From positions 1-62,536 of IMG/VR virus record IMGVR_UViG_3300036944_000366: 62,536 nucleotides of DNA; one strand, given 5' to 3'. The notes under the pieces are model-generated. The model was given only the letters and a program-made list of their open reading frames with translations, ran no database searches and was not told the origin of the DNA. Shown piece by piece: positions 22,901-45,984 of the stretch (positions are counted from its first letter, which is position 1; each line of letters starts with the position of its first letter). This DNA is from a virus. The position numbers and the translations under genes are program-made.

Positions 22901-25900
22901 GACCTCAAGCAAGCGCGTAAACAAGTCATTGAGCAGGGCTACACCGAAGGCGGTGTGCAGGAGTTGATCGCCAACATTGACGACGTCAACGCGCAGTTGC
23001 AAGACGCGCAGACAGACATGGCCCTGCTCAACTCAGCGTTGTCCGTGCTTGACGGTCAGATGCAGTCGTTTGCCGCTGTTCAGAAACTGACAGCACTGAT
23101 CGACAAGGCTCCGTCGGTCGAACGTATCGACCAAGCCAAGCAAGAGTTTGCGGCTGTTCGGGCCGAGCTGGAGGTCCTGCAAACTGAAAACAACGAACTG
23201 CAAACACGGTTGCGCAAAGACGCGGCAGACAAACGCCGTGCAGACGAGGCCGTCAAAGCAGCGGAGCGCAAAGCACAGGCGGCTGCGGGGCAGCTCAAAC
23301 CGTCCGAGCAAGCGCTCAACAACTTGCCAAACTATGACAAGGCTACGCAGTACCCGGCGCTGACTGAAGCACAAATGCTGGCGCGTGAACAAGGCGGCAC
23401 AACGCCCACACTGTCGGCAGCAGAAACAACGCAAATCAATGGCGACCCCGCACAAGTTCTTGGCGGCTATCGTTCACGCATTACTGACTTGGAAAAGCTC
23501 ATCAGGCAGTCGCAGGATAAATCCAAAACAGCGCTGGCCAAAGACATGGTGCAGCCTGCACAAAACCTGCGCGATGCCCTTGATAAAGCGTACAAAAAAG
23601 CCAAGTCTGCTGCCGAGCGAGATGTGCTGGGACCAAAACTGGATGCAGCCGAAGCCAAGTTGGCGCAAGCTAAAGCTGAGCTGGCCAACACGCAGGTAAT
23701 CTGGGTGGGCATGAAGAAGCAGATCAACGACTTGGCCAACGTCATGGCTCGCGCTGACTGGCTGGAAGGGCTTATTGCTGAAGGTAAGATTGAATTGGAA
23801 GCGCCCGCTGCCGCAAAGGTCCGGGCCAAACCCACAGCAGAAGAAGCCGCCACCACACGCGCAGCACAAGCCAAAGCCGCAGCAGAGCGCACAACTGCGC
23901 CTGCAACATCCGGCGAAGCGCTGACACGTTCGGAAGCCGCCAAGGCACGCCAGTCCCAAAAGACTTTGTTTGAAGGCAAAGGCGTGCCTGAAGGGACGGC
24001 AAAAGAAATCCCAATGACTCCCGCTGAGCGTTTGGCGGCTATGCAAAAAACCGCTGCGGCGCGGAACAAAGCGCTGTATCGTGTATCCGCCACAACCGGC
24101 CCAAGCATGAGCGTAGCTCAAGTGCAAAAAGTCTATGACGCGCTGACAGGTGCGTGGGTGAACAAGCCTGAGACTGTTGTGGTGGCGGATGAAAAAGGTT
24201 TGCCCATCCGTATTCGCAATCAAGCAGAGCGCGATGGTATGACCGGCAAGATTCCCGGTTTGTATGACCCCGTAAGTGGCAAGGTGTATTTGGTTGCGTC
24301 CAACCTGCGCAGCGTCAACGACGTGATCCTGACGACAGTGCACGAGATTGCTGGCCACTTTGGCTTGCAGTCCATCCTTGGCGACACCTACGCCAAGACC
24401 ATGACCGACATCTACAACGGCAACGCAGCTATCCGTAAAGCTGCCAACGCCAAGATGAAACAGGTCAAGTCTCTTGACCAGAACACCGCCGTGGAAGAAG
24501 CGCTGGCAGAGCAGGCCGAGTTGGACCCCAACGCGCCGGATACCCGCAGCGCCATGCGCAAGATTTACGACACCCTGAAGAAGTGGGTGCGCGACACCTT
24601 GGGGTTAAAGGACACCGTCACAGACGCACAGGTCAACCAGATCATTGCCAACGCCCGCAAGTACGTCATCCAAGGCGGCGAAGCCGGTACGGGTACGGCT
24701 GGCGTAGCTACGCCGTCATACCGCTCAAAAACCACAGCACCCGCCAACGCACTGGAGTCATTGGCCCAAGACATCACAGCGCAGCCCAAGACCCTCAAAG
24801 AGAAGCTGGGCAACAACTTGGCGTTGCAGGCTGAAATGCAGGCCGTGGATATGCGGGCGGGTTTGCGTGACGTGCTCAAGTTTGGCGACGACAACCTGTT
24901 CACACAAGCGATGTACCACGTGCGCAAGGCCGAGCAGAAGATGGCGCAGATGTTCACCGTGATGAACAGCGGCCCGCTGGTGGCTTACAAAGACGAGAAA
25001 GGTCTCGTCGGCTACCGCAGCTCAAACCAGAACAGTGCTCGGGAAGTGTTTGACGCCATCGCTGACATCCCTGTGGACGACCCACAACTGAAGACCAACA
25101 TCGCGCAAGCGTACATGGTTGCTCAGCGTGCGCAAAACAAAGGTCTGTCCAAGCTGGACTTCGGTGAGTTGGGTATCACAGAGGAAAAACTGCAAGCCGC
25201 CTTGGCAGCAGCCAATGCCGACCCTGCCTTGAAAGACGCGCTGGAGAACGTGCGCCGCAAGTACAACGCCTACAACAAGGGGTTGATCGAGTTCCTCGCC
25301 AGCTCTGGCCGCATCTCCAAGAAGACGGCCGCTGACTTGCTGAAAGACGGCGACTACGTGCCTTACTACCGTGTGCGTGACAACGGCACAGCCGAGCTGA
25401 ACTTCGGCAACAACGTCACGTTCAACGTGGGCGACATCCGCCGCCAGCCATACCTTGCCGAACTCAAAGGCGGCGAGACCAAACTGCTGCCCTTGAACGA
25501 AGCCATCCAGCAAAACACTTTGCTGCTGACGGACATGGCGTTGACCAACAACGCCACCAAGAGCGTGGCGTACGGCTTGCAGGCTCTGGGCAAAGGCATG
25601 GGGCCAGTCGATCCGAAGACAGGCAAGCCTACAAACCTGATGCCCATCAAACCCGGCAAAGGCCCAGCAGACGCCCGTACTATCCGGTTCTTCCAAGAGC
25701 CGGACCCAAACAAGCCAGACGACACTGGTGAGCGCCACGTTGTGGTGGAGACCAAGGGTACGCTTGCCGAAGGCGTCCCTGCGGAACTCGTGGTACAGAG
25801 CTTGGAAGGCTCAAGCCTTGCGCTGCCCGGCTTCCTGAAACTGGGCGGTGTTGCTGCCGATCTGTTGCGTGCTGGTGTGACCCGCACACCTCTGTACATT

Positions 25901-27376
25901 GCCCGCAAACTGCTGCGCGAACCCATGGCCGCGTCGTTTACCGGCGGTCTGGAGTCAAACACGTTCTCGTCCATCTTCAAGGCAGGCGCTGAGTATCTAC
26001 GCATGAGCACTGGCCGCAGCGACATGCAGGCCAAGCTGATCGAGAAAGGCTTGATCCAGTCCAACATCTTCGCAGGCGACATGTCTGACATGAAGAAGAT
26101 GGCGCTCCAGCTTGCCAGCGGTAAAGACCAAAACGCTTTTGAAAAGCTCCTTGCTGCGGCTGACCGTTCTGCGATGCGGGCGGACGCCGCTACGCTGGCG
26201 CTGGTGCTCAAAAACGCTGAAGCCAACGGCTTGTCCGAAGTCGAGGCCGATATGGCCACGATGGAGTCGATGAACTTCTACAAGCGCGGGCTGTCGCCAA
26301 CGCTGCAATACGCAAGCCGCCTGATTCCGTTCTTCAACGCCCAGATTCAGGGTCTGAACGTGTTGGTCAAGGCAGCGCGAGGCAACATGCCGTTCGAGGA
26401 ACAGCAGCAAATCAAGCGCAAGTTCTTCAACAATGCGCTGTTGTTGACCGCCACCGGTCTGGTGTATGCCATGGCCATGGAAGACGACGAGACTTTCCGC
26501 AACGCACGCCCACGGGATAAGTACTCCAACTTCTTCATGCCGATCCCCGGCGTGGATGAGCCACTGAAGTTGCCAATCCCGTTTGAAGCGGGTTACTTCT
26601 TCTCCATGGCGGTTGCCGCTGTGGATGCAATGCGTGCCGAGACTGACGGCAAAGCGCAGTGGCAGGCTATCCGTGATCTGTTCTTGGGCTCGGTCCCCGG
26701 CTACTCGTCCATGGGCATGCCGCAGATCGTCAAGCCTGCCTTTGAGGTGTGGACCAACAAGAACTTCCTGACTGGCGGTCCCGTTGAGTCGTTGCGTTTG
26801 CAGGGCATGAACCCAGAAGAGCGCTACCTTGCCACCACGACAGAGCTGGCCAAGCAGATGAGCAAGGCGGTGCCTATCTTGTCCCCCGTCCAGATCGAGC
26901 ACATTGTGCGCGGGTACTTGGGTGTGCTGCCTCTGGCAGCAGCGGCTGGGGCCAACGGTTTGTTTGAACGTGAAGGCAAGGGCGAGAAGCCTGAAGGCCG
27001 TGCGTCAGACCTGCCGCTGGTGGGTACCGCCTTCCAGAAGAAGTACGGCGGTGCTGATGCTGACGTTGTGTTCCGTGAAGCCAAAGAAGCCGAGCAGACA
27101 CGCAACACGCTCAACAAAATGCTCAAGGAAGGCCGCAAAGAAGAGGCCATCGAGTTCCGTGATGCAAACCGTGCCGAGCTGGCGCTGGCTTCTGTCGCAG
27201 GGCAGTACCGCCAAGTGGTTGGGCGCATCAACGAGGACATCCGCCGCACGCAAGAGCGCACCGACTTGAACGCTCAGGAAAAGCGTATCCGACTGGACGC
27301 GCTGGACAAGGCCAAGCAAGACCGCGCCGATGCTTTCCTCAAAGCACAGCGCAGAATTGAAGAAGCTCAGCGATAA
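19946..27376 (+). CDS. Giant polyvalent virion protein with zincin metallopeptidase motif
   Basis: 2,476 residues. N-terminal about 300 residues include Ala/Gly-rich hydrophobic helices (near 110-150). Long charged coiled coils fill about 320-1400. A peptidase-like region follows: HEIAGHFG at 1466-1473 supplies two candidate zinc histidines and the catalytic glutamate, and EE at 1517-1518 may give the third ligand. The C-terminal half is globular, and its last about 200 residues (SLRLQGMNPEERYLATTTEL, IEHIVRGYLGVLPLAAAAG) resemble the LPD38 domain of large polyvalent proteins. Such proteins are packaged and injected to act early in the host. The ribosome site is weak (GAGAA). The stop overlaps a convergent gene by 10 bases. 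Confidence 0.75.
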   Translation: MADKIQLPNGAFFPVKEGESKEQALSVAKQMYPDAFAPPVAEKSKEDTKGFKAAAAAGFERLKGEAALTAGKLGLMDEAKAEQFQKEKQAAAQARFTPTEEGWTEAPFQKFKETLGGSVPYMLAPAAAGIAALAAPVSAPVAAGLGLLGAGAVSTGQFTGSNLAAQMETGKSLKESSGAAALAAAVPQALIDTAAMALLPGVGKLFGSVGSKLTTEQAKAIANQTLGKAVMDYTAKTGTAMTREGFTETVQQVLERLQAGTNLADEDARKEYIESFIGGAVLGGAVAPAGRYIERSGAKTQAAKVDREERNVAAKTAAEQARIAEEADAARKNTPEYAMEVGQQYDTLLQQFQAKQAQLKKPGKNADPVQKAEYADAQKELQALNGQLKELVPEYRRTAPIRAQMPETLELTPSPAETAAPTEAVEVDPTQLLERKRQAQQLLEQNQQELSDVTAAGNMAQFDAGMKQRKALQKEIGQIDAQLKQAGVEDVQTDPAAIQAQLEKEYAKLSNMAGAGFDPDKAERQRAKITKLETQLQSVAGGQQGLDFGATRTLELPLTAAQNQREAMAARGTAAGQQRIAGVEEEEQALLEEQRAQTERDLQEAQRVQALGGEFAGLQRMQAAPAGISDQFGLFGTEELPPAGSAGIGQMKQKLLGEDVTFTAEEDKPRDLRRVPGAEFKLRGRNEGTAPVTRDELADRLNRVLSTYDLSPEAVELLQRAEKALPQSGADYFALLDEQLAKIESGEEGVPRKGQSRTAELQTFPAAPAQQARASTTAPTEAGVRQVEQITGAVPGQAASKLKTPIAQPEAEDRRTGVRGAADVTKRVDDTQASTLRGPSAQAGELSLANELAEPLRIQEEAAREDTGQKSLFPEEQEKLGFIKGNRGAFQMFMKSKFVQNLRQQLRRDEEIAKRAQAIPALEKRANSLIAEIEDILKQYAEYRSADAVVKANKDVAKAKRDMAEIRAAASKSTVDRMLLAGAIEDLKQARKQVIEQGYTEGGVQELIANIDDVNAQLQDAQTDMALLNSALSVLDGQMQSFAAVQKLTALIDKAPSVERIDQAKQEFAAVRAELEVLQTENNELQTRLRKDAADKRRADEAVKAAERKAQAAAGQLKPSEQALNNLPNYDKATQYPALTEAQMLAREQGGTTPTLSAAETTQINGDPAQVLGGYRSRITDLEKLIRQSQDKSKTALAKDMVQPAQNLRDALDKAYKKAKSAAERDVLGPKLDAAEAKLAQAKAELANTQVIWVGMKKQINDLANVMARADWLEGLIAEGKIELEAPAAAKVRAKPTAEEAATTRAAQAKAAAERTTAPATSGEALTRSEAAKARQSQKTLFEGKGVPEGTAKEIPMTPAERLAAMQKTAAARNKALYRVSATTGPSMSVAQVQKVYDALTGAWVNKPETVVVADEKGLPIRIRNQAERDGMTGKIPGLYDPVSGKVYLVASNLRSVNDVILTTVHEIAGHFGLQSILGDTYAKTMTDIYNGNAAIRKAANAKMKQVKSLDQNTAVEEALAEQAELDPNAPDTRSAMRKIYDTLKKWVRDTLGLKDTVTDAQVNQIIANARKYVIQGGEAGTGTAGVATPSYRSKTTAPANALESLAQDITAQPKTLKEKLGNNLALQAEMQAVDMRAGLRDVLKFGDDNLFTQAMYHVRKAEQKMAQMFTVMNSGPLVAYKDEKGLVGYRSSNQNSAREVFDAIADIPVDDPQLKTNIAQAYMVAQRAQNKGLSKLDFGELGITEEKLQAALAAANADPALKDALENVRRKYNAYNKGLIEFLASSGRISKKTAADLLKDGDYVPYYRVRDNGTAELNFGNNVTFNVGDIRRQPYLAELKGGETKLLPLNEAIQQNTLLLTDMALTNNATKSVAYGLQALGKGMGPVDPKTGKPTNLMPIKPGKGPADARTIRFFQEPDPNKPDDTGERHVVVETKGTLAEGVPAELVVQSLEGSSLALPGFLKLGGVAADLLRAGVTRTPLYIARKLLREPMAASFTGGLESNTFSSIFKAGAEYLRMSTGRSDMQAKLIEKGLIQSNIFAGDMSDMKKMALQLASGKDQNAFEKLLAAADRSAMRADAATLALVLKNAEANGLSEVEADMATMESMNFYKRGLSPTLQYASRLIPFFNAQIQGLNVLVKAARGNMPFEEQQQIKRKFFNNALLLTATGLVYAMAMEDDETFRNARPRDKYSNFFMPIPGVDEPLKLPIPFEAGYFFSMAVAAVDAMRAETDGKAQWQAIRDLFLGSVPGYSSMGMPQIVKPAFEVWTNKNFLTGGPVESLRLQGMNPEERYLATTTELAKQMSKAVPILSPVQIEHIVRGYLGVLPLAAAAGANGLFEREGKGEKPEGRASDLPLVGTAFQKKYGGADADVVFREAKEAEQTRNTLNKMLKEGRKEEAIEFRDANRAELALASVAGQYRQVVGRINEDIRRTQERTDLNAQEKRIRLDALDKAKQDRADAFLKAQRRIEEAQR

Positions 27377-32058: not shown

Positions 32059-33039
32059 TTACTCGTCGTCCCAGTCGGACACGATGTCAGCCAGCTTGGA
32101 CTTCTTGGCAGGCACGGCACCACCTTTGGCGGTCTCCTTGCGCACTTCGGGTTCGTCCGTTTCAGCTTCTTCCACTGGCTTGGCTTTGGGCTTGGCCTTG
32201 GCGGCTTTGACTTCGGCCATCGCGGCAGTGTCGTCCTCGTCCATCATCTCGCCCATGGGCTTAGCAACGGGCTTTGGCGCAGCGCCGCCGATGTTCATCG
32301 GTGCGGCTTTCACGCCGTCAGCTTGCGCCACGGTCAGGGTCACAGCCTTCTTGGCATCGTCAGACTCGCCTTGCGTCACAGCAATCGGGTACTCGTCGTC
32401 TGTCAACCAGCGCGTAGGCGCGAAGAACAGCTTGGGAGACTCGGCCTTGGTGTCGAACTTCATGCGCGTGACGATCTGCTCGGGGTTAACCGGAGGTGTC
32501 TGCGCTGCCAAGTAGCGGGCGTAGGCTTGCAGGGGACGCTTGTCGCCTTCTTCCTTACCGAAGATGCTGGTAGCTGGGAGTGTCAGTTGCAGCACATCAC
32601 CTTCAGGGTTGTTGGCCAGCACAACAGCAAGGCGCTGTTGGAAGCGGCAGGCGCGGCTGTTGCCGTTACCGGAACCGGCTTCGTTCTGTGGGCAACCCAT
32701 GCAGGCGTGGTTCTGCGGGGCCGAGATGCTTGCGTCAGGCTTCTCGCCGTCATTGCTCCAGCAGTCAGGGCGCACGATTGCGTCAGCGTTGTAAGCGCCA
32801 GCGTAGAAGATGCGGCTGACCTTGGGGGCAGCGCGAACAATGATGACGTCAAGGTGGCGGTCGTCGATGCTGGTGATCTCCTTGCCGCCTGCCACCAGAC
32901 GGAACACGCCGCCTTTGATGGAGATGCGCTTGGTAGATACGCCAGAACCGCCGGTCAGGGCCTTGGCTGTGTCAGACAACTCGTTGTTACGAGCAAATGC
33001 GGGGACGTTGGACGAACTGAAAAGCGTAATGTTGCTCAT
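32059..33039 (-). CDS. Putative single-stranded DNA-binding protein
   Basis: 326 residues. An OB-like N-terminal region (RISIKGGVFRLVAGGKEITS, DDRHLDVIIVRAAPKVSRIF) contains a possible zinc site (CW...HACMGCP...CRFQQR, about 92-135). A Lys/Ala/Glu-rich linker ends in the acidic tail KLADIVSDWDDE, the signature of ssDNA-binding proteins that recruit replication partners. It sits between replication genes. The fold is inferred; no standard SSB motif is present. Confidence 0.6.
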   Translation of the reverse strand: MSNITLFSSSNVPAFARNNELSDTAKALTGGSGVSTKRISIKGGVFRLVAGGKEITSIDDRHLDVIIVRAAPKVSRIFYAGAYNADAIVRPDCWSNDGEKPDASISAPQNHACMGCPQNEAGSGNGNSRACRFQQRLAVVLANNPEGDVLQLTLPATSIFGKEEGDKRPLQAYARYLAAQTPPVNPEQIVTRMKFDTKAESPKLFFAPTRWLTDDEYPIAVTQGESDDAKKAVTLTVAQADGVKAAPMNIGGAAPKPVAKPMGEMMDEDDTAAMAEVKAAKAKPKAKPVEEAETDEPEVRKETAKGGAVPAKKSKLADIVSDWDDE

Positions 33040-35354: not shown

Positions 35355-36020
35355 TCAATCTTTCTTTCGGTTGTACTCACAGGTTTTAACAACGCACCAC
35401 CCGCATAGCGGTGTGGGCTTGGGGTTCCACACCCCGGTCTCATGCGCCTTTTCAATGCGGGCGACGCGTGTCCGGTAATCCCACCAATACTCCTCGGCCT
35501 CACCGCGCAAGAAGCTGGCCTTGACCAAGTCGTTCTTGACCACGAACAGCAGACCGCCACTGACCTTGCGTATGTGCGGGAAGTGCACGAACACCATCAG
35601 CGCCATCAGCCGAAGCTGCTCCCGATCCGGGTACTTGTTGTTGCCCGACTTATAGTCGACCACGCGAGCTGTCAAGTTGTCATCGTCGATGATGAGCAAG
35701 TCGGCAATACCGCGCACCCATACATCTTTGTCCATGAATCCGCAAGGGCGCAGATCGGACGTGACGCCCATCTCGTGCTCACACAGCTTGCGGCCGGGCT
35801 TGGCTTTGAGCGCATCGAGCATGTCCTTGATGAACTCAAACTGTGGTGGCAACGGCGTGTTGTCCTTGATGTAGAACTCCGCCGCGGAGTGCAGCTCCTT
35901 GCCGTACAGCGTAGCCTCTGTGTCAGTGAACGGGTAGCTCTTGAGCACCTTCACCTCGTGGTAGCGCCGGGGACAACCTTCGTAGTCCTTGAGCGCGGAG
36001 TGCGACCATTTAACTGTCAT
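35355..36020 (-). CDS. RecB/Cas4-like PD-(D/E)XK nuclease with Fe-S cysteines
   Basis: 221 residues. The nuclease core is GIADLLI (D107) plus VVDYKSG (D122, K124). C16 near the N-terminus and C206, C209 and C214 near the C-terminus are arranged like the iron-sulphur clamp of Cas4/AddB-type exonucleases. The N-terminal SALKDYEGCPRRYHEVK is typical of that family. Likely an exonuclease acting in recombination or processing of replicated ends. The ATG overlaps the stop of the gene before it (ATGA). Confidence 0.85.
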   Translation of the reverse strand: MTVKWSHSALKDYEGCPRRYHEVKVLKSYPFTDTEATLYGKELHSAAEFYIKDNTPLPPQFEFIKDMLDALKAKPGRKLCEHEMGVTSDLRPCGFMDKDVWVRGIADLLIIDDDNLTARVVDYKSGNNKYPDREQLRLMALMVFVHFPHIRKVSGGLLFVVKNDLVKASFLRGEAEEYWWDYRTRVARIEKAHETGVWNPKPTPLCGWCVVKTCEYNRKKD

Positions 36021-36632: not shown

Positions 36633-38624
36633 TCAGCCCTTTGCTAAACCATAACGGCGGTGTGCACCGACCTCTGAGTTCAGCGGTATGCCGGGCATGT
36701 ACTTAGGCGGAGCAATCATCTGCTCCAGCACCCAGCCCTTGGCATACTCGACCTCAGCGTCAGGCACGACACAGAGCAATTCATCATGCACTGTGCCTAC
36801 CACGGGGTACTTCTTGTCCACCCGTAGCATGCCGTCCGTCATCACCACACGCGCAGTTCCCTGCACGATGTTGTTCGTTATCTTACCTGCATACAGCTTG
36901 GTTGGCTTGACGCCCTCCTCCCCGTACACCCAGTTGCGTTGCTTTGTTTCTTTATCGACTTCGTTACGTAAGTTCGGATACTTGAGGGTCATGCCCGAGG
37001 GCAAGACGATCTCTTCTTTTCTGAACGTGACGCATTTATACACCACCTCTTCGCCGCCGTAAAGCGACTTCTCCATCAGCTTGGAGCACATGTCCCAGAA
37101 GCTGACCACGGGGTGCGCTGTGCTGCGGTAGATGTCGATGATCTTCTTGGCCGCGACACAGTGGATCAGCAGCTCCCGCTCCGTACAGGTGTGGGGAATC
37201 TCCCGGAGCTTCTTAACATTCTCGTCCCACCCAACGAAGCGGTCGATGTAGGCGGCGTCCACACCGAGCTTCTTTGCAAACGCTTTGTCGTAGCGTACGG
37301 GAGGAGCGCCAAGGAATCCAACGAGAAGCTGAGCAGCGAAAGACGCCCAGCCAAGCCCGTACCCGCAGCCAAGGAGTGCCGACTTTGCAGACTGTCGCAA
37401 GTCTGGGTGGCTTTCTTTTGAAAGGCCGGGTATGTTGAACATCTGAGCGCCGAAAGCGGCGTAAGCGTCACTGCCAGACCTGAAGATGTCGAGCATATCT
37501 TCGTAATCCGCAAACCACGCAAGTACTCGCGGTTCAATTTGTGAAAGGTCCCCGACGACAAGCTGGTTCCCCAGCGGTGCCATGATTGCTTTGCGTAAGA
37601 ACGAACCTCGCTTGAGGTTTTGCATGTTGATCGCACTGCCTTTGGCCGCAGTCCAACGGCCCGTTGCCGCGCCGTAGTAGCTAAGCGGAACCGGGAGCGG
37701 GCCCCTGCCCGAGATGTCAAGGAAACGCTGGGCACGGGTACGTTCGGTTGTAGACTTAACGCGAAGACGCGCTTCACAAAGAAGGGCAACGTCTTCACGT
37801 TCACCGTTGAGCAGCGCTTGAAATAGCGCGTCATTTTTTGCGAGAGCAAACGCCTCCTTCCCAGTGGTCTTGCTGATTTTCGTAGGGGGAGTGACGCCCA
37901 TGAGAGTAAGTACTTGCGCAAACTTATCGTTCGACGCAAGCGAAGACTCCTCAATGCCGAGTTTCTTAAGTAGCCCTTCACGTTTTTCTCCTTCTTCTGA
38001 TAGCGCTTTGATGAGCATCTCCCTGTCCAGCTCAAGGCAGGCGTTGGTGTACATGCGCAGGGTCATGTCGATGAGGCGCAGTTCTTTGGCTGGATACCCT
38101 TTGATGAGCCGCAAGAAAATCTGCTCACACAACCATGTGTCGTGGCAGCAGTAGTCGGCAAGGATGGCCTCAACATCCGCAGGCAGCTCGTCCAGAATAT
38201 TCTCTGACGGAGACAGCCCATCGCCCTTGGGCGGCAGGTTAAACAGCGCAGCCAGCTTGGCCAGACTGTTGCCCACCTCAACCCCGCGCAGTGCACGGCC
38301 CATCGACAACGTGTCGAAGATGAACGCAGGTCGGGCGTTGTAGTGCCAGCTCATGATGGACACATCAAACAGTGCGTTCTGTGCAACCACCGCAGTGCGG
38401 CTCCAGTCGATCAGCGCAAAGAACTTGGGCAGCTCTTTGCGTGTCACCCATACTGCGGGTTCTGCGCTGCCCAGCGGCTTCCACGATAGGCCCCATGCTT
38501 TGAAGCGCGGGTCGCGTACGTACTCCTCGTTGGTCTGTGTTGAGAACCCAAGCCGCACATCAGGTGAGCGGCCCCATGCTGTCTCGAAGTCCAGCACTAT
38601 GACTTGGTCGTATGGTGCGCTCAA
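36633..38624 (-). CDS. Family A DNA polymerase with 3'-5' exonuclease
   Basis: 663 residues with a TTG start, chosen because AAGGAG lies 8 bases upstream and the TTG overlaps the previous stop (TTGA). The exonuclease domain begins with VLDFETAWG (D12, E14). Polymerase motif A is DLSQIEPRVLAW (D359), motif B RQSAKSALLGCGYG (R410, K414) and motif C VGTVHDELL (H613, D614, E615). There is no 5'-nuclease domain, as in T7-like enzymes. The phage replicative polymerase, working with the primase-helicase at 27515-30502. Confidence 0.93.
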   Translation of the reverse strand: MSAPYDQVIVLDFETAWGRSPDVRLGFSTQTNEEYVRDPRFKAWGLSWKPLGSAEPAVWVTRKELPKFFALIDWSRTAVVAQNALFDVSIMSWHYNARPAFIFDTLSMGRALRGVEVGNSLAKLAALFNLPPKGDGLSPSENILDELPADVEAILADYCCHDTWLCEQIFLRLIKGYPAKELRLIDMTLRMYTNACLELDREMLIKALSEEGEKREGLLKKLGIEESSLASNDKFAQVLTLMGVTPPTKISKTTGKEAFALAKNDALFQALLNGEREDVALLCEARLRVKSTTERTRAQRFLDISGRGPLPVPLSYYGAATGRWTAAKGSAINMQNLKRGSFLRKAIMAPLGNQLVVGDLSQIEPRVLAWFADYEDMLDIFRSGSDAYAAFGAQMFNIPGLSKESHPDLRQSAKSALLGCGYGLGWASFAAQLLVGFLGAPPVRYDKAFAKKLGVDAAYIDRFVGWDENVKKLREIPHTCTERELLIHCVAAKKIIDIYRSTAHPVVSFWDMCSKLMEKSLYGGEEVVYKCVTFRKEEIVLPSGMTLKYPNLRNEVDKETKQRNWVYGEEGVKPTKLYAGKITNNIVQGTARVVMTDGMLRVDKKYPVVGTVHDELLCVVPDAEVEYAKGWVLEQMIAPPKYMPGIPLNSEVGAHRRYGLAKG

Positions 38625-38905
38625 TTAAATAACTCCTTGGGGGGTGCATCGCGCAGCACCATTGCTTGCGCCATATCGTTTGCCTGTCCGATCATGGTGG
38701 CCAAATCCATCTCGTCAGCGCCAACGCAGAACGTCAGCATCGCGTCTCCAGTATCGACCAGCACAACTGCTTTGTTGGGCAGGTCGGGGTTGTAGCACTT
38801 GGCCAGCATCATGATGAGTTTGCCGAAGTGATCGCGCAGGCCCATGTCGCTGTTGCTCAGGCTCTCTATCGTGGCATCCCACGACTCTTGTGTCAGCTTA
38901 TCCAT
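38621..38905 (-). CDS. Conserved hypothetical protein upstream of polymerase
   Basis: 94 residues, GGAGTTGCAAGC site. Contains LIMMLAKCYNPDLPNKAVVL and ADEMDLATMIGQANDMAQAM, a helix-rich pattern I recognise in phage replication modules. It overlaps the VRR-NUC gene by 13 bases and the polymerase start by 4. Possibly a polymerase accessory protein by context only. Confidence 0.65.
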   Translation of the reverse strand: MDKLTQESWDATIESLSNSDMGLRDHFGKLIMMLAKCYNPDLPNKAVVLVDTGDAMLTFCVGADEMDLATMIGQANDMAQAMVLRDAPPKELFN

Positions 38906-39189
38906 GCTTGCAACTCCTGTTCTAGTTCTTCCAAATTATCCTCACGGACCACAACCGCGAACCCGTATGCGGCTTTGATTGCCTGAAGCTCGCGCTCCTG
39001 TAGTGCCGTGGTCTTGCCCTTGCCCGCCTTGCACTCGATAGCGATGAAGCGGCCTTGGTAGCATCCGATGATGTCGGGGATACCTGAGCGCCCAAGCCCC
39101 ATGCCCGGAGGCATGAAGTGGTAGATGCCCAAGCGGTCCAGTACCTTGCGTACTTCGTTCTTGACCTTCTTCTCTGGGGTGTCAGCCAT
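38893..39189 (-). CDS. VRR-NUC domain nuclease
   Basis: 98 residues from ATG 39189. The PD-(D/E)XK-type core is GIPDIIGCYQGRFIAIECKA (D39, E52, K54), followed by ALQERELQAIKAAYGFAVVV, which is diagnostic of stand-alone VRR-NUC proteins. They act on branched DNA such as Holliday junctions or replication intermediates. It lies just upstream of the polymerase cluster and overlaps the DUF3310 gene by 8 bases. Confidence 0.88.
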   Translation of the reverse strand: MADTPEKKVKNEVRKVLDRLGIYHFMPPGMGLGRSGIPDIIGCYQGRFIAIECKAGKGKTTALQERELQAIKAAYGFAVVVREDNLEELEQELQAWIS

Positions 39190-39427
39190 TTTGAATCTCC
39201 GCGAGTTTGACTGCGTAGTGCCGCGCCTTGTTGGCGTCGTCACTGTCCTTCTTGCCTTGACGCATGGCGTACTTGATGACGTTGCCTTTGAGGAAGCCCA
39301 CGAACTCCTCGTGCGTGAGCACAGCCTCCATCACAGCCCAAGGCTGGATGCCCATGTCTTTGTAGTGTTGGCCACCAATCTGCAAATCGTTTGCAGTGGT
39401 TCCGTTGAATCCGTCTTTGATGTTCAT
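39182..39427 (-). CDS. DUF3310 / T7 gp1.7-like protein
   Basis: 81 residues. IGGQHYKDMGIQPWAVMEAV and FVGFLKGNVIKYAMRQGKKD are the hallmarks of DUF3310, the family of T7 gp1.7, reported as a nucleotide kinase. Here the small size matches the usual single-domain form. Probably influences nucleotide supply during replication. ATGA overlap with the upstream gene. Confidence 0.8.
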   Translation of the reverse strand: MNIKDGFNGTTANDLQIGGQHYKDMGIQPWAVMEAVLTHEEFVGFLKGNVIKYAMRQGKKDSDDANKARHYAVKLAEIQNG

Positions 39428-39678: not shown

Positions 39679-39971
39679 AGTTCGTGCTTGTTGAGTGAGG
39701 GCTTGACGTTGGGGGCAGCGCGGCTGTAAACGCCGAACTGTTTGTACGCAGTGACAGCCAGCTCCTTGTCTTTCTTGCGCGACCCCAGTTTGTGGATCGT
39801 ACCTATACTTTTGCCAAGTTGGCGTTGGGAGTCCACAAAATCCGTGGCAATTTGTGCTCCGCTCTTACCGTCCTCGCCCTTGGCCCGGAAAGTGTGGTCT
39901 TTAAGAAACATGCTGTCGCGGGGGTTGCTGGCCCACAGGAACGGCGAGTCGGGGTGGCATTTACATTTCAT
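39675..39971 (-). CDS. Hypothetical protein with N-terminal Cys/His motif
   Basis: 98 residues starting MKCKCHPDSPF, a possible metal-binding start. A basic helical region (SQRQLGKSIGTIHKLGSRKK) is followed by VYSRAAPNVKPSLNKHEL. I recognise no family. Overlaps its neighbours at both ends by ATGA, and marks the edge between replication genes and the modular small-gene array. Confidence 0.55.
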   Translation of the reverse strand: MKCKCHPDSPFLWASNPRDSMFLKDHTFRAKGEDGKSGAQIATDFVDSQRQLGKSIGTIHKLGSRKKDKELAVTAYKQFGVYSRAAPNVKPSLNKHEL

Positions 39972-40336
39972 GTGTTCTTCTCCTTGAGTTTGTCTTCAAC
40001 CCGTTTCATTGCCCGTTCAGGAATAGTGTCCCAACAATCTGCCAACTCTTTATTTGTCAGCCCAACCCATTGCCGCTGTGCTGCGGGTGGGGTGGTGTTT
40101 AACCGATTCAATAGCCACTCCATGACATTCAAAGATACAAATTCCCGTGTGTTTTCGTAAATTTCTTGCTCAAGGCTGTCTATTGTTGCCACAGGCTCCT
40201 GCACAGTTGCTGAACGGGCTTGCTTGATGGCGGTGCAAGCGTCTTCTGCCATTGCGTAATCCATCAAACTAGTAGACGTGTCGATGAAATACTCCAACGC
40301 CGCCAGCGCCAAGTTGAGTGCTTCGTCTTTGGTCAT
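39968..40336 (-). CDS. Modular array protein 1 (VQEPV/TTPPA type)
   Basis: 122 residues built from blocks shared with neighbours: TKDEALNLALAALE at the N-terminus, TAIKQARSATVQEPVA in the middle, TTPPAAQRQWVGLTNKELAD near the C-terminus, and the terminal tail DKLKEKNT that doubles as the next gene's ribosome site. The family is frequent in phages and prophages but has no known function. Proline/glutamine linkers between helices suggest a flexible modular protein. Confidence 0.6.
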   Translation of the reverse strand: MTKDEALNLALAALEYFIDTSTSLMDYAMAEDACTAIKQARSATVQEPVATIDSLEQEIYENTREFVSLNVMEWLLNRLNTTPPAAQRQWVGLTNKELADCWDTIPERAMKRVEDKLKEKNT

Positions 40337-40572
40337 AGTCCCAACTCCTTGAGTGCTGCTTGCAGTCCAGCCAAGCCACCGACACGCTGGTTGTTGATGA
40401 AGATTTGTGGCATCTGCCGGGCTTCGGGGTACGCCAAGATAAAGCTATTGCGCACAAAGTCGGGCCATGCTTCAACATCAATATCGGTGTACCCAATCCC
40501 CTTGTCGTCCAGCAGCCGCTTGGCTGTCACGCAGTTGGGGCATCCTGATTTTGTATATACAACAATGTTCAT
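40333..40572 (-). CDS. Glutaredoxin
   Basis: 79 residues, complete thioredoxin fold. The active site is CPNC (C11, C14) after MNIVVYTKSG, with the cis-proline region MPQIFIN and the glutathione-binding GGLAGLQA. It could keep a ribonucleotide reductase or other enzyme reduced, though no reductase is encoded here, so a host partner is likely. Inserted between array genes with 4-base overlaps. Confidence 0.9.
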   Translation of the reverse strand: MNIVVYTKSGCPNCVTAKRLLDDKGIGYTDIDVEAWPDFVRNSFILAYPEARQMPQIFINNQRVGGLAGLQAALKELGL

Positions 40573-40760
40573 GTGTTCTCCTTCAGGTATCTGTCTACCT
40601 TCCCTTGTTCAAACTTCGCATAATGTTGCGCCGCTTCCCAAAACCCAATCAATGAATCTTGGTTTATAAGCCACGCAAACATGCGTATCTCCGGTGTTAT
40701 TTCTGTTATGCCAGCTTCGGCGGCAAGTCGCTCTAAGTTTTCGTGCAGTCGGTTGGTCAT
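40569..40760 (-). CDS. Small helical protein, paralogue of next gene
   Basis: 63 residues. The N-terminal LERLAAEAGITEITPEIRMF matches the protein at 40757-41116 (RLAAEAGIKDVTPEIRRFA), so the two are tandem duplicates with different C-termini. Ends in YLKENT, encoding the GGAGAACACATGA junction. Function unknown. Confidence 0.6.
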   Translation of the reverse strand: MTNRLHENLERLAAEAGITEITPEIRMFAWLINQDSLIGFWEAAQHYAKFEQGKVDRYLKENT

Positions 40761-41116
40761 GTGTTCTTCTCCATTTCAGTTTTCAGCCTCGGGTAGTATC
40801 GCCCGACAGATACAAGCGTTGAGTTCGCGGTCTTCTCGTTGAAGCCGCATTCAAGGTGTTGCTTGATATTCAAGTGCGCCATGGCCAGCAAACCGTACAC
40901 CGCTGTAAGCTCTGCGTTGAGTTTTGATACGGCGAGTTCATGTTGCTTTTCGCGCATATCAGGCTCAGCAGCCGTCAGGTCTACCCCCTCATGCCCGGGC
41001 CACCCCACCAAATCTTGTCGCACAAGCACAGCAAAGCGCCGAATCTCAGGCGTCACATCTTTAATGCCAGCTTCGGCGGCAAGGCGGTCAAATTTTTCAA
41101 TCAGTCGTTCAGTCAT
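40757..41116 (-). CDS. Small helical protein, longer paralogue
   Basis: 119 residues. It shares its first about 30 residues with the 40569-40760 product, followed by a unique helical domain (MREKQHELAVSKLNAELTAV, LNIKQHLECGFNEKTANSTL). Ends in EMEKNT at an ATGA junction. The duplication with divergent tails fits repeated recombination in this array. Confidence 0.6.
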   Translation of the reverse strand: MTERLIEKFDRLAAEAGIKDVTPEIRRFAVLVRQDLVGWPGHEGVDLTAAEPDMREKQHELAVSKLNAELTAVYGLLAMAHLNIKQHLECGFNEKTANSTLVSVGRYYPRLKTEMEKNT

Positions 41117-41790
41117 GCGTTCTTCTCCTTGAGTTTGGCTTCGATGGCTCGGGCGACTTCTGTAAAAGACAGCATTGCCGCACCAAGCGGAACACAGGCT
41201 TTTTCAATTTCCTCATCCGTCAGGTCTACCCATGTGCGCTGTGCGGGTGGGGTGGTGTAGCGCTCCAGCGCAGAAAACAGAGCGCCACCGTGATCCGCTT
41301 CAACGTCTCGGCCTTTGTAGCCCGGCAAAGAATCGCCATGAACTGCTCGTGCGCCTCTGGCATCGTTGTAGCCAAGGTCATATGCGCCACGGATCGCATC
41401 AAAAATCCGGCGTTTTGCCATTGCATGCAGCGCCACAGGCTCCTGCACAGGTGCTGCGGGTGGGGTGGTGTAGAGGGGTTCGACTTCTTTGTCTTTCTCG
41501 GGAGTCGGTGCAAAACACCCGAACAGTTCCCAATCACCCTTTCGTTTACTCATACCATCTGTGCCGTAGTGGTATCTAACACGCCACGCCACAGGCTCCT
41601 GCACAGATGCTGGCTGTGCGGGTGGGTGAAGCAGTGGCTCATTTGTAATGTGCTTGCGCCCATTCCTGTCTGTAATTATTCGTTCAGTCATGTGTTCTCC
41701 TTCAAGGGGGTACTTTGCGTCGTAGGTGCCTCGCTCTTTGGCTCTCTCGACCATGAACCGGAACAGGGCCTTGATTTCGTCTTTGCTCAT
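41113..41790 (-). CDS. Modular array protein 2, possible fusion of two genes
   Basis: 225 residues from ATG 41790, where GGAGG is well placed. The first about 33 residues (SKDEIKALFRFMVERAKERG) look like a separate small gene. An internal ATG at 41691 has its own ribosome site (AAGGAGAACAC) and begins MTERIITDRNGRKHITNEPL. The body has two VQEPVA blocks, two TTPPA blocks, QRTWVDLTDEEIEKAC and the tail AKLKEKNA. Either the full ORF is made, or the shorter one is also made from 41691. Confidence 0.6.
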   Translation of the reverse strand: MSKDEIKALFRFMVERAKERGTYDAKYPLEGEHMTERIITDRNGRKHITNEPLLHPPAQPASVQEPVAWRVRYHYGTDGMSKRKGDWELFGCFAPTPEKDKEVEPLYTTPPAAPVQEPVALHAMAKRRIFDAIRGAYDLGYNDARGARAVHGDSLPGYKGRDVEADHGGALFSALERYTTPPAQRTWVDLTDEEIEKACVPLGAAMLSFTEVARAIEAKLKEKNA

Positions 41791-41972
41791 GTGCCCTCCT
41801 TGGGTTCATCAAAATCAAACCACTCATGTATTTCGTTGAGCACCTCACGCACGATTGACTCGTTGATGTCTGCCGTGCTTGGCGCATCGTTGTGCTTGTA
41901 GGCCCTTGTGTGCCCAATAACTACTCCGTCAGTGATGCACTGCTCAAGCAACTGGGTAAATTTTGGTCTCAT
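41787..41972 (-). CDS. Small acidic hypothetical protein
   Basis: 61 residues (RPKFTQLLEQCITDGVVIGH, ESIVREVLNEIHEWFDFDEP). Mixed alpha/beta, acidic C-terminus. Start follows GAGGAGAAAAC, and the stop overlaps the next start by ATGA. No family recognised. Confidence 0.6.
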   Translation of the reverse strand: MRPKFTQLLEQCITDGVVIGHTRAYKHNDAPSTADINESIVREVLNEIHEWFDFDEPKEGT

Positions 41973-42199
41973 GTTTTCTCCTCAAGGGTTAGGCCCCACA
42001 CTTTGTACCCGGCGCAGTCGGTTGTGTGGAACAGTCCGTCTGTGCCAAGTGCGTTCTGGTGCAGTGCGTGTGCTGTTGGGTGTTTTTCATGGCAAGGAAA
42101 CCCGCCAGACTCTTTTATGGTTCCGTACATCTGCCGCACTAAATATCTGTGCAACTCAGGCGTCGTTGGTTTGCATGGGCACATCGTACATACCTTCAT
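41969..42199 (-). CDS. Cysteine-rich small protein
   Basis: 76 residues from ATG 42199, chosen over longer in-frame ORFs because it overlaps the upstream stop in the array's usual ATGA manner. N-terminal CTMCPC plus later Cys and His residues (GGFPCHEKHPTAH, TTDCAGYK) suggest a zinc-binding fold. The tail LEEKT encodes the next gene's ribosome site. Function unknown. Confidence 0.6.
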   Translation of the reverse strand: MKVCTMCPCKPTTPELHRYLVRQMYGTIKESGGFPCHEKHPTAHALHQNALGTDGLFHTTDCAGYKVWGLTLEEKT

Positions 42200-42606
42200 G
42201 TGTTCTTCTCCTTGAGTTTGGCTTCGATGGCTCGGGCAGCGTCTTCCCAAAATGGTTTACGCAATCCTTCAGCAACTTCTTCGTCCGTCAGCCCAACCCA
42301 TGTGCGCTGTGCTGCGTGTTGGGTGGTGTAAAGAGGCGTTGATGTAACTGGATAGCTCTTAGAAAAGTCCACCCCCGGTTTACCAAATGGGTGTTTTCGT
42401 TTTTGCGTGATCGAAACAATCCCTTTGCCGTTGGCCTTGATGCCTTCAGTGTTGTCCATTACGTGCATCCACGCCACAGGCTCTTGCACAGGTGCTGGCT
42501 GTGCTGGTGGGTTGTTTAGTGCAGCAATTGCGGCGTTCCACCCACGGTTGAACAACGTCACTTCCATAGAATCGCAATCGCGTTCTGGTTTTTTACTCGG
42601 CGTCAT
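42196..42606 (-). CDS. Modular array protein 3
   Basis: 136 residues from ATG 42606 (AAGGGACAAAA upstream). Blocks: GWNAAIAALNNPPAQPAP, VQEPVAW, PLYTTQHAAQRTWVGLTDEE and ARAIEAKLKEKNT. The last two are nearly the same as in the 41113-41790 product, showing exchange or duplication of C-terminal modules. A unique insert (MDNTEGIKANGKGIVSITQK) separates them. Confidence 0.6.
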   Translation of the reverse strand: MTPSKKPERDCDSMEVTLFNRGWNAAIAALNNPPAQPAPVQEPVAWMHVMDNTEGIKANGKGIVSITQKRKHPFGKPGVDFSKSYPVTSTPLYTTQHAAQRTWVGLTDEEVAEGLRKPFWEDAARAIEAKLKEKNT

Positions 42607-42697
42607 TTTTGTCCCTTCCCCCGGCCATGTAGCCAACTATAAAAATGAAAATTGCCACAAAAAGAAAATAGGCGATACGGTCATCCGTGCAACTCAT
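42593..42697 (-). CDS. Tiny single-span membrane peptide in array
   Basis: 34 residues: MSCTDDRIAY, a membrane helix FLFVAIFIFIVGYM, then AGGRDKNDAE. The ATG at 42697 overlaps the stop of the upstream array gene (ACATGA) with GGAGAAC before it. The 3' end carries the ribosome site of the next gene. Its placement and coupling make it a likely real small gene. Confidence 0.55.
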   Translation of the reverse strand: MSCTDDRIAYFLFVAIFIFIVGYMAGGRDKNDAE

Positions 42698-43398
42698 GTG
42701 TTCTCCTTATTTTCTACAGACTGCATAGGTACTGCTGCGGGTGGGGTGGTGGCGATCCAGAAAGGTGGCTGTTTACCCTCCAGCAAATAACGCACTTCAG
42801 CCAGAACCAGATCAACATCAGTAGGGTCGGCGGGGATGCGGCGCGGCGCGTGTCCGTCCTGAATGCGTTGCTCTGCTGCCTTGATGCGGTCAATCAAACC
42901 ATCAGGCCACGCCACAGGCTCCTGCTGCGGTTGTGACTTTGTTCCCCTCAGTCTTAATCTCCCGGGGCCAGACGCAAGCGTGTATGCGTCTATGATTTGG
43001 CGCAGGGATGTGGTGGCATCAAGTTCGGCTTGCAAGTCAGGTGCTGCGGGTGGGGTGGTGTAGAGGGGCGTTGCGTCATCCCAGCATTTTGATTCGTAAT
43101 AGATGCGAATTCCGTCTTCATCCCTGTACCACGCCACAGGCTCCTGCACAGGTGCTGGCTGCGGATTGATGTCACCAGTTGCCATGTACCGATCAAGCTG
43201 CCCCTTTGTTACATCGCCATATTGCCGAAGGTGATAGACAGGCTCCTGCACAGGTGTTGAACGGGCTTGCTTAATGGCTGTGATGGCTTTGTCAACCTTT
43301 GCTTGACTGAAATATTGGTAGCTGCCTTCGCTTCCATATACCTGATCGCAAGACTCCAACGCCGCCAGCGCCAAGTCGAGTGCATCGTCTTTGGTCAT
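42694..43398 (-). CDS. Modular array protein 4, largest member
   Basis: 234 residues from ATG 43398 (GGAGAAACCAA). It begins TKDDALDLALAALESCD, like array protein 1. It then has TAIKQARSTPVQEPV, PAPVQEPVAWYRDEDGI, PLYTTPPAAP, QQEPVAWPDGLIDRIKAAEQ and ATTPPAA, ending VENKENT. It thus holds three QEPV and two TTPPA blocks with unique inserts between. This mosaic layout is the clearest evidence for module shuffling in the region. Confidence 0.6.
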   Translation of the reverse strand: MTKDDALDLALAALESCDQVYGSEGSYQYFSQAKVDKAITAIKQARSTPVQEPVYHLRQYGDVTKGQLDRYMATGDINPQPAPVQEPVAWYRDEDGIRIYYESKCWDDATPLYTTPPAAPDLQAELDATTSLRQIIDAYTLASGPGRLRLRGTKSQPQQEPVAWPDGLIDRIKAAEQRIQDGHAPRRIPADPTDVDLVLAEVRYLLEGKQPPFWIATTPPAAVPMQSVENKENT

Positions 43399-43628
43399 TT
43401 GGTTTCTCCTCTTGCTCGGATGGTGTCGCGCAAACTTATGCAAATGTCAGCGCCATCCCGGTCGTTATGGCAAACAAGAATGCCAGCCAATTCATCACAC
43501 AACTTTGCACACGCCTCACGCTCATCGGCACGAACAAGGGCTTCAAAACGTTTGAGGTGTTCCATGCTATCCCTTGAAGTGTTTACAAGCATTCCAGCTT
43601 CACGGGCCATCTTTATTGCGTCTCTCAT
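43395..43628 (-). CDS. Small phage protein of the RADEREACAKLC family
   Basis: 77 residues from ATG 43628 (GGGAGAAGAA). Contains FEALVRADEREACAKLCDEL and ends SLRDTIRARGETK. I know this pattern as a very common small phage protein of unknown function. It shares the E..ECAK(L/V)C...IRARG core with the product at 43762-43968. Confidence 0.65.
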   Translation of the reverse strand: MRDAIKMAREAGMLVNTSRDSMEHLKRFEALVRADEREACAKLCDELAGILVCHNDRDGADICISLRDTIRARGETK

Positions 43629-44796: not shown

Positions 44797-45984
44797 TCAG
44801 TTGCCTTTGACGCAGAGCACTTGCTTGAGCGTGTGCACCACTTCAACGAGATCGGTTTGGTTGGCCATCACTTGGTCGATGTCTTTGTACGATGCGGGGA
44901 TTTCGTCGATGACTCCTTCATCTTTGCGGCATTCAACTCCCTCTGTTTGAGCAATGAGGTCAGTAAGGGAGAAGCGGCGCTTGGCTTCGGCTCTCGACAT
45001 AACTCGTCCTGCACCATGCGAACAAGAGCAGTAGGAGCTAACATCACCTTTGCCTCGGACGATGTAAGACCGCTGTCCCATACTTCCCGGAATAATTCCA
45101 AGATCGCCTTCTCGGGCACGGATTGCCCCTTTGCGTGTGACCCACATGTTGCGTCCGAAGTGGTGTTCTTTTTCGACATAGTTGTGGTGGCAGTTGATTG
45201 CTTCCTGTGTGATGGTGAACGCAGGCATCATCCCGCGCATCGCTTCGATAACTTGAATCATCATGCGGCGGCGGTTCTCAAGCGCGTAGTTCTGCGCCCA
45301 TCCCACTGCGTACATGTATGCGTCAAAGTCGTCTGTGTCCTCGGGGAAGTACGCGAGGTTGTCATCGGGCAACGTGATAAAGAACTGCTCCATCTGGCGC
45401 TTGGCCTTGGCGATGTAGTGTGTGCCGATCATGTTGCCGATGCCGCGTGATCCGGAGTGAAGCATGATCCACACATCTTGGCTCTCGTCGATGCACACCT
45501 CAATGAAGTGGTTGCCTGACCCGAGTGAGCCGATCTGTGATGCGGCCTTGGCGTGGAACTTGTCGTAGTCGCCTTTGTACAGCGGCTCAACAACGGTGCG
45601 CAAAAGCTCGGGAGTCACGCTTCCAATGTCTGTGCTGTCATCGTGCGCACCCCCCACACCTAGAGGCACACGGCGCTCGATCTCGTCACGCAAAGGCTTG
45701 AGATTGTCGGGCAGATCACTGGCCTTCAGAGACAGGCGCACAGCGTTCATGCCGCACCCAATATCGACACCCACAGCGGCGGGGATAACGGCCTTCTCCG
45801 TGGCAATGACCGTGCCCACAGTCGAGCCGATGCCAGCGTGAACGTCAGGCATACAGGCCACGCCATTGGCGTTGATGAATGGTAGCCGCGCCAAGTTCTT
45901 GAGTTGCGTCAAAGCGGAGGCTTCGACGTCGTCCGTCCATACTTTGATGGGGCGTGCGCCCTCATCTTGCATTACTTGTTTCAT
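44797..45984 (-). CDS. rtcB: RtcB-type RNA ligase
   Basis: 395 residues, near the usual family length. Metal and catalytic positions are present: D47 and H49 in CMPDVHAG, D74 and C77 in VGVDIGCGMNAV, H159 in LGSGNHFIEV, H176 in MLHSGSRGIGN, a His pair at 266-267, and the guanylylated-type His323 in SHGAGRVMSR. RtcB joins 2',3'-cyclic phosphate or 3'-phosphate ends to 5'-OH ends using GTP. In a phage it could reseal tRNAs cut by host anticodon nucleases; that use is inferred. GGAG site 7 bases before ATG. Confidence 0.93.
   Translation of the reverse strand: MKQVMQDEGARPIKVWTDDVEASALTQLKNLARLPFINANGVACMPDVHAGIGSTVGTVIATEKAVIPAAVGVDIGCGMNAVRLSLKASDLPDNLKPLRDEIERRVPLGVGGAHDDSTDIGSVTPELLRTVVEPLYKGDYDKFHAKAASQIGSLGSGNHFIEVCIDESQDVWIMLHSGSRGIGNMIGTHYIAKAKRQMEQFFITLPDDNLAYFPEDTDDFDAYMYAVGWAQNYALENRRRMMIQVIEAMRGMMPAFTITQEAINCHHNYVEKEHHFGRNMWVTRKGAIRAREGDLGIIPGSMGQRSYIVRGKGDVSSYCSCSHGAGRVMSRAEAKRRFSLTDLIAQTEGVECRKDEGVIDEIPASYKDIDQVMANQTDLVEVVHTLKQVLCVKGN

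Follow-up and report, generated by a model that had tools for sequence, protein, structure and literature searches.

The usual account of phage mosaicism is that rare illegitimate joints arise and are then filtered by selection. Mosaicism within genes is of a known kind, as in tail fibres and Ea22, and in lambdoid phages, where neighbouring genes overlap at their ends, short conserved boundary sequences carry the ribosome-binding signals and allow genes to be swapped. Here we describe an array of small genes in the IMG/VR virus record IMGVR_UViG_3300036944_000366 (62,536 bases, analysed whole and referred to as the window), in which a few short stretches of coding DNA, the linkers, recur within and between genes. 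As judged from sequence comparison, this module array is probably best accounted for by the exchange of in-frame modules and of whole genes through homologous recombination at these short conserved linkers.

Among the closest described systems are the Ead/Ea22-like proteins of lambdoid phages (IPR025153; PMC10834534, PMC7093339), which resemble the array in being accessory, early-region and mosaic; a common N-terminal part is followed by unrelated, swapped C-terminal portable domains, and their function is subtle. Mosaicism with swapped C-terminal domains is also seen in the module proteins, as a resemblance only, and the Pfam Ead_Ea22 profile gave no match against 10 window proteins or against 57 and 150 relatives. 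Intragenic domain shuffling in tail fibres, lysins and other proteins (PMC10684548) is alike in that fragments are common to otherwise unrelated proteins, and that study predicts further mosaicism in accessory proteins of unknown function. In relaxed homologous recombination (PMC3945230), homology likewise lies at the edges of the exchanged segments, and small gene fragments move more often than modules; among the E. coli phages considered, mosaics were found mostly in temperate and defective phages, with 0.06 per pair in virulent ones.

The array is flanked by a PolA-type DNA polymerase gene (36633-38624) and an RtcB ligase gene (44797-45984). The sequence-only reading had named four open reading frames (ORFs) that reuse the same DNA. 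All four are present on the minus strand, with the blocks QEPVAW, YTTPPA, QRxWVGLTDEE and KLKEKNT in common:

39968..40336, minus strand: module gene 1, 122 amino acids (aa); MTKDEAL..AIKQAR head and KLKEKNT tail, with a single EPVA linker and the TTPPAAQRQWVGLT linker
41113..41790, minus strand: module gene 2, 225 aa; the head is unusual, the EPVA module occurs twice and the tail reads TDEEIEKACVPLGAAMLSFTEVARAIEAKLKEKNA
42196..42606, minus strand: module gene 3, 136 aa; a single EPVAW..PLYTT module, with a tail of the WVGLT type
42694..43398, minus strand: module gene 4, 234 aa; MTKDDAL..AIKQAR head; the EPV motif occurs three times and TTPPA twice

The EPV linker CCACAGGCTCCTGCACAG gave seven matches in the window at three or fewer mismatches, with 0.10 expected from shuffling. 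A second linker, TGCTGCGGGTGGGGTGGTGT, which encodes TTPPA and had previously been noted at the protein level only, gave six, and a third, TCATGTGTTCTTCTCCTTGAG, located at gene ends, gave three (0 expected for either). With only 0-0.1 copies expected per linker, repeats by chance are ruled out, and the reuse of DNA in the four ORFs was confirmed at copy numbers far above chance. The copies are direct, in-frame and coding; they encode PVQEPVAW, YTTPPAA and LKEKNT-stop in one common frame on the minus strand, the EPV copy at 43236 having QEPVY instead of QEPVA:

40189..40206, minus strand: EPV linker
41433..41450, minus strand: EPV linker
41589..41606, minus strand: EPV linker
42474..42491, minus strand: EPV linker, 1 change
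42912..42929, minus strand: EPV linker, 3 changes, all toward one end (truncated copy)
43134..43151, minus strand: EPV linker
43236..43253, minus strand: EPV linker, 2 changes
40079..40098, minus strand: TTPPAA linker
41239..41258, minus strand: TTPPA linker, 3 changes
41452..41471, minus strand: TTPPAA linker
42310..42329, minus strand: TTQHAA linker, 2 changes
42733..42752, minus strand: TTPPAA linker, 1 change
43042..43061, minus strand: TTPPAA linker
39968..39988, minus strand: gene-tail linker, LKEKNT-stop, with AAGGAG Shine-Dalgarno and ATGA overlap with the next gene
41113..41133, minus strand: gene-tail linker, 1 change
42196..42216, minus strand: gene-tail linker
42694..42714, minus strand: shorter gene-tail junction, ENKENT-stop, ATAAGGAGAACACATGA

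When a PVQEPVAW pattern with all synonymous positions left free was run on IMG/VR, at least 120 contigs were matched. Among the 124 matches listed, 63 had the identical 24 bases, and CCC was used for neither proline in any. One dominant codon per residue was found in QEPVA, YTTPPA, AIKQA, WVGLTDEE and KLKEKN; codon use was even in the remainder of the module ORFs and in other genes. The codon for glutamine was CAG in 90% of QEPVA and CAA in 100% of AIKQA.

For the comparison of linkers, three scans were pooled into 401 loci (window included) with 546 non-redundant candidate ORFs. Between contigs, the fourfold third-base identity was 0.79 for PVQEPVA, 0.96 for TTPPAA, 0.91 for AITAIKQA and 0.55 for WVGLT, against a saturation expectation of 0.27. 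In polymerase orthologues of the window relatives, taken as a benchmark, it was 0.83 where aa identity was 95-100% and 0.57 where it was 80-85%. Within the same ORF pairs, the flanked inserts (0.73) were below the linkers (0.87). Linker copies from different contigs resembled each other about as closely as copies from a single contig, which argues for a shared pool rather than local duplicates. An exact shared run of at least 23 nucleotides (nt) was present in 42% of contig pairs for TTPPA, 23% for the tail and 14% for EPV, as compared with 0.05% for random sites; the median exact run was 13-21 nt and the 99th percentile about 33-50.

The gene tail AAACTCAAGGAGAAGAACACATGA encodes KLKEKNT-stop, and the same DNA holds AAGGAG and an overlapping ATG. 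In 213 of 278 tails the next ORF used the ATGA overlap as its start, against 279 of 1091 control genes, and a Shine-Dalgarno sequence was present in 243 of the 278. Because the tail comprises this sequence and the ATGA start of the next gene, a gene exchanged between two tails arrives with working signals. To judge from these signals, the gene tails make whole genes plug-in units.

Linker codons fixed far beyond what the protein requires, and a tail clearly functional as Shine-Dalgarno plus start, would also fit a function of the linker DNA or RNA itself (a regulatory or translational signal, or a nuclease or recombinase site), with swapping as its by-product. However, at about 400 loci the EPV and TTPPA cores occurred solely in frame within module-type ORFs, and a free-standing site needs no frame; this explanation we regard as improbable. 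A core lay in an ORF without another module mark in 5 of 125 cases for EPV and 2 of 165 for TTPPA, and neither core was found on the opposite strand or elsewhere in the window. A Chi-like free DNA site was ruled out for both by their exclusively in-frame occurrence.

Cutting of the ORFs at the linkers gave 925 segments, among which there were 110 close insert pairs across different contigs. The neighbours of these inserts, where comparable (167), were unrelated in 138 cases, weakly alike in 11 and alike in 18; the same fragment is thus found inside otherwise unrelated proteins. The insert CAVIVEVFGKDWRLDYMSLP.. sits in five different contexts, the gene 4 insert WYRDEDGIRIYYESKCWDDATPLY is common to locus L079, and the gene 2 tail TDEEIEKACVPLGAAMLSFTEVARAIEAKLKEKNA was found again, behind other upstream modules, in L011, L017, L021, L177, L245 and L292. 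Of the internal ends of DNA homology, 51% were no more than 12 nt away from a linker, against 21% at random; with the fourfold identity and the exact shared runs, this places homology at the borders of exchange. DSL-LC05, a 37.6 kb lake phage deposited as a complete circular genome, has a different genome plan; a 43-nt tail linker is shared with it, as are modules such as DWGPGPHEYHSL. Mosaicism and turnover as a reading of the array are strongly supported by these sequence comparisons.

Since the relatives are mostly metagenome contigs, and co-occurring phages share linkers, assemblers might have fused different phages at the repeated linkers. Against such an artefact, the exact runs are short. 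Usual assembly k-mers and reads are longer than these. Moreover, two different metagenomes (L146, L147) contain an identical 5.2 kb island, DSL-LC05 has the same modules and tail, and inserts with different partners carry many synonymous differences, so that the joins must be old; we find an assembly artefact scarcely credible. Ordinary duplication and divergence of one gene within a phage, with no exchange between phages, would give several copies per genome and paralogues such as 40569-40760 and 40757-41116. It is opposed by the near-identical inserts with unrelated neighbours on different contigs and by linkers equally alike between and within contigs, and its probability is close to negligible.

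In a search of 84,980 prokaryote species genomes, a degenerate linker pattern was found at 8 places, none of which resembled a module gene on inspection, although other codings of the wider module families may remain. Prophage or bacterial origin was rejected on this result. One Paraburkholderia genome gave no match to query A1, an uninformative result. As the linker motif occurs as a real module in no prokaryote genome searched, the analysis suggests that the array carriers are virulent phages.

Turnover was followed in relatives retrieved with the polymerase (59 loci, all but one at 67-97% identity). By DNA comparison, the backbone at 30.0-39.97 kb was conserved and the island (39.97 kb to about 43.97 kb) was mostly unmatched in each. 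Module ORFs of differing content were present in 12 of 16 syntenic islands inspected. In pairwise comparison of 16 genomes, island cover was 0.85, 0.33 and 0.10 at backbone identities of 95-100%, 88-95% and 80-88%, respectively, with backbone cover at least 0.90 throughout the same pairs (mean 0.90 at 80-88% nt identity). L143 and L145 are 97.5% alike, and between them one whole module gene is replaced and one small gene duplicated. L146 and L147, from two different metagenomes, have the identical island mentioned above and a 100% identical backbone. Insert swapping and rapid turnover, both foreseen from the letters alone, are borne out: relatives keep the backbone and not the island, the same inserts stand beside unrelated neighbours, and homology ends cluster at linkers. 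When insert content was compared among relatives, as had been proposed, only the L146/L147 pair had an unchanged array.

In L143, a 63-aa gene is present in two copies (6853-7044 and 7962-8153, plus strand) that bracket the newly acquired module gene, an arrangement without parallel in L145. It is possible that this gene was doubled during the insertion.

The earlier reading had limited the array to four genes; these stand, and the array is wider by three more:

40569..40760, minus strand: short gene, paralogue of the 40757-41116 head; same ATGA/Shine-Dalgarno junction
40757..41116, minus strand: gene with TERL..TPEIRRFA head, fused elsewhere (L133:3202-3507) to a WVGLT/KLKEKN tail
43395..43628, minus strand: gene with MAREAG..RADER head, start picked by inspection

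The heads of the first two are shared, and that of the third also occurs on module proteins of other contigs. A glutaredoxin gene (40333-40572, minus strand) lies within the hypervariable island. At its side, none of the 59 polymerase loci had DNA matching the RtcB gene (44797-45984, minus strand), and in L133, L136, L138 and L143 the counterparts of window positions 45981 and 44791 overlap (about 18 nt). To judge by these overlapping flanks, it looks as if RtcB were a single gene gained precisely beside the array. Farther off, a 2476-aa ORF (19946-27376, plus strand) has no PHROG match.

For insert pairs, the ratio of nonsynonymous to synonymous substitution (dN/dS) was 0.15, and the proportion of nonsynonymous differences was below that of synonymous ones in 123 of 131. 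As inserts under such purifying selection imply, real proteins are made, and at the protein level the inserts are, on this sequence evidence, maintained by it. In an AlphaFold2 model of gene 3 (42196-42606), a helix spans residues 12-31, strands lie at 45-50 (EPVAW linker) and 87-92 (PLYT linker), and the tail is helical and confident, with a predicted template modelling score (pTM) of 0.36; a two-module protein was modelled worse (pTM 0.32), and both models are of low confidence. In the gene 3 model, the joints bounding the EPVAW module appear to pair as beta strands and to form a fixed base from which the insert projects as a loop. No PDB fold match to the modelled module proteins was found. 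The linker system itself had no match in Pfam, NCBIfam or PDB, and PHROG matches were weak and to function-unknown families only.

Among 150 related module proteins, Pfam gave WDGH (2), HNH_3 (2), DnaJ CXXCXGXG (2), Lar restriction alleviation (1), RNA polymerase alpha-CTD (1) and others, the Lar, alpha-CTD-like and HNH parts each being fused in frame to modules. Thus L103:409-1011 (plus strand) has two EPVAW modules and a WVGLT tail behind a Lar head, L107:2-565 (minus strand) contains an alpha-CTD-like segment, and L021:5050-5802 (plus strand) and L261:5986-6585 (minus strand) are full HNH homing-endonuclease proteins with module tails. The cargo parts suggest host-interaction roles. The last two proteins are what one would expect if homing endonucleases drove the exchange, with array HNH enzymes cutting DNA and repair copying modules via the linkers. 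They are only two of the 150, however, none was found in the window array and no cleavage site is known, and we hold homing to be highly improbable.

The Lar and alpha-CTD-like parts, and the hypervariable position in the leftward gene cluster adjoining replication genes, are in keeping with a counter-defence repertoire as the main role, in which exchange is selected for renewing inhibitors of host defences. The same pattern would be expected from host takeover or regulation, and Lar occurs in only 1 of 150. Window proteins had no match among known anti-restriction or inhibitor families. Since the window inserts match no known family, counter-defence is kept as a possibility only, and one that we do not favour. 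Of the sequence-only interpretation as a whole, the repeated linkers, insert swapping and turnover hold, and the support for counter-defence is indirect.

For exchange at the linkers, the following mechanism is proposed. The island would be a hypervariable set of small accessory proteins made from exchangeable parts, on a plan that begins with a helical head, ends with a helical tail and has EPVAW..PLYTT beta modules, from none to several, in between. The short DNA encoding the joints, kept in frame across many different phages, would serve as the anchor for homologous recombination during co-infection, the linkers being some 20-40 nt long. Crossing over at two of them would replace the enclosed insert and leave the reading frame intact; a crossover at two gene tails would replace a whole gene, with the ribosome-binding site and ATGA start retained. 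Inserts would then be retained through selection on the protein. Homologous recombination as the agent, and the enzymes involved, we infer from the sequence. Next to the array, the backbone carries genes for a PD-(D/E)XK exonuclease (35355-36020), an Hjc-like resolvase (38893-39243) and a helicase, which makes a phage-encoded recombination pathway plausible. We would guess that the target of the array proteins is the host, at an early stage of infection. In addition, a window protein (32059-33039, minus strand) has an acidic C-terminus (..SDWDDE) and may be a single-strand DNA-binding protein, an assignment without profile support.

Several points weigh against exchange at linkers. Profile searches identified no annealing protein. 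Exact linker runs are mostly near or below 20-25 nt, the length usually quoted for RecA. Half of the homology ends lie away from linkers, and other events must therefore occur too. WVGLT DNA is less conserved than the remaining linkers, 4 of the 16 syntenic islands yielded no module ORFs, and the dN/dS pairs were picked at 65-98% aa identity, a choice that lowers dN.

A stronger form of the proposal, a dedicated in-frame cassette exchange, holds that the linkers are identical across unrelated phages since exchange itself is selected; we consider this rather doubtful. If true, shared inserts, heads and tails would recombine into new host-interaction proteins, giving the phage community as a whole a combinatorial protein library. 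The carriers are freshwater and other environmental viruses of bacteria, and the array resembles a natural mix-and-match maker of accessory proteins. It offers a large natural data set, with joints conserved as DNA, changing cargo and phages not seen as prophages, in which the effect of short homology on new proteins can be measured. The linkers are also a marker for retrieving thousands of uncharacterised accessory proteins from metagenomes, some with anti-restriction or RNA-polymerase-like parts.

No description of a multi-gene linker system with EPVAW or EPVA motifs was found in the open-licence papers searched. Compared with Ead/Ea22, the module system has many genes per phage with DNA-conserved linkers and is without a common coiled-coil core. 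The shuffled domains of PMC10684548 belong to named core functions, whereas the array has conserved short DNA joints in many genes for unknown proteins. Its carriers look virulent yet exchange heavily, which is notable because in PMC3945230 the virulent E. coli phages had few mosaics. Unlike the boundary sequences of lambdoid genes, the boundaries of the array lie within genes as well as between them. Finally, shufflons and integrons need a recombinase gene together with inverted or attC-like sites; the linkers of the array are direct, in-frame and coding.

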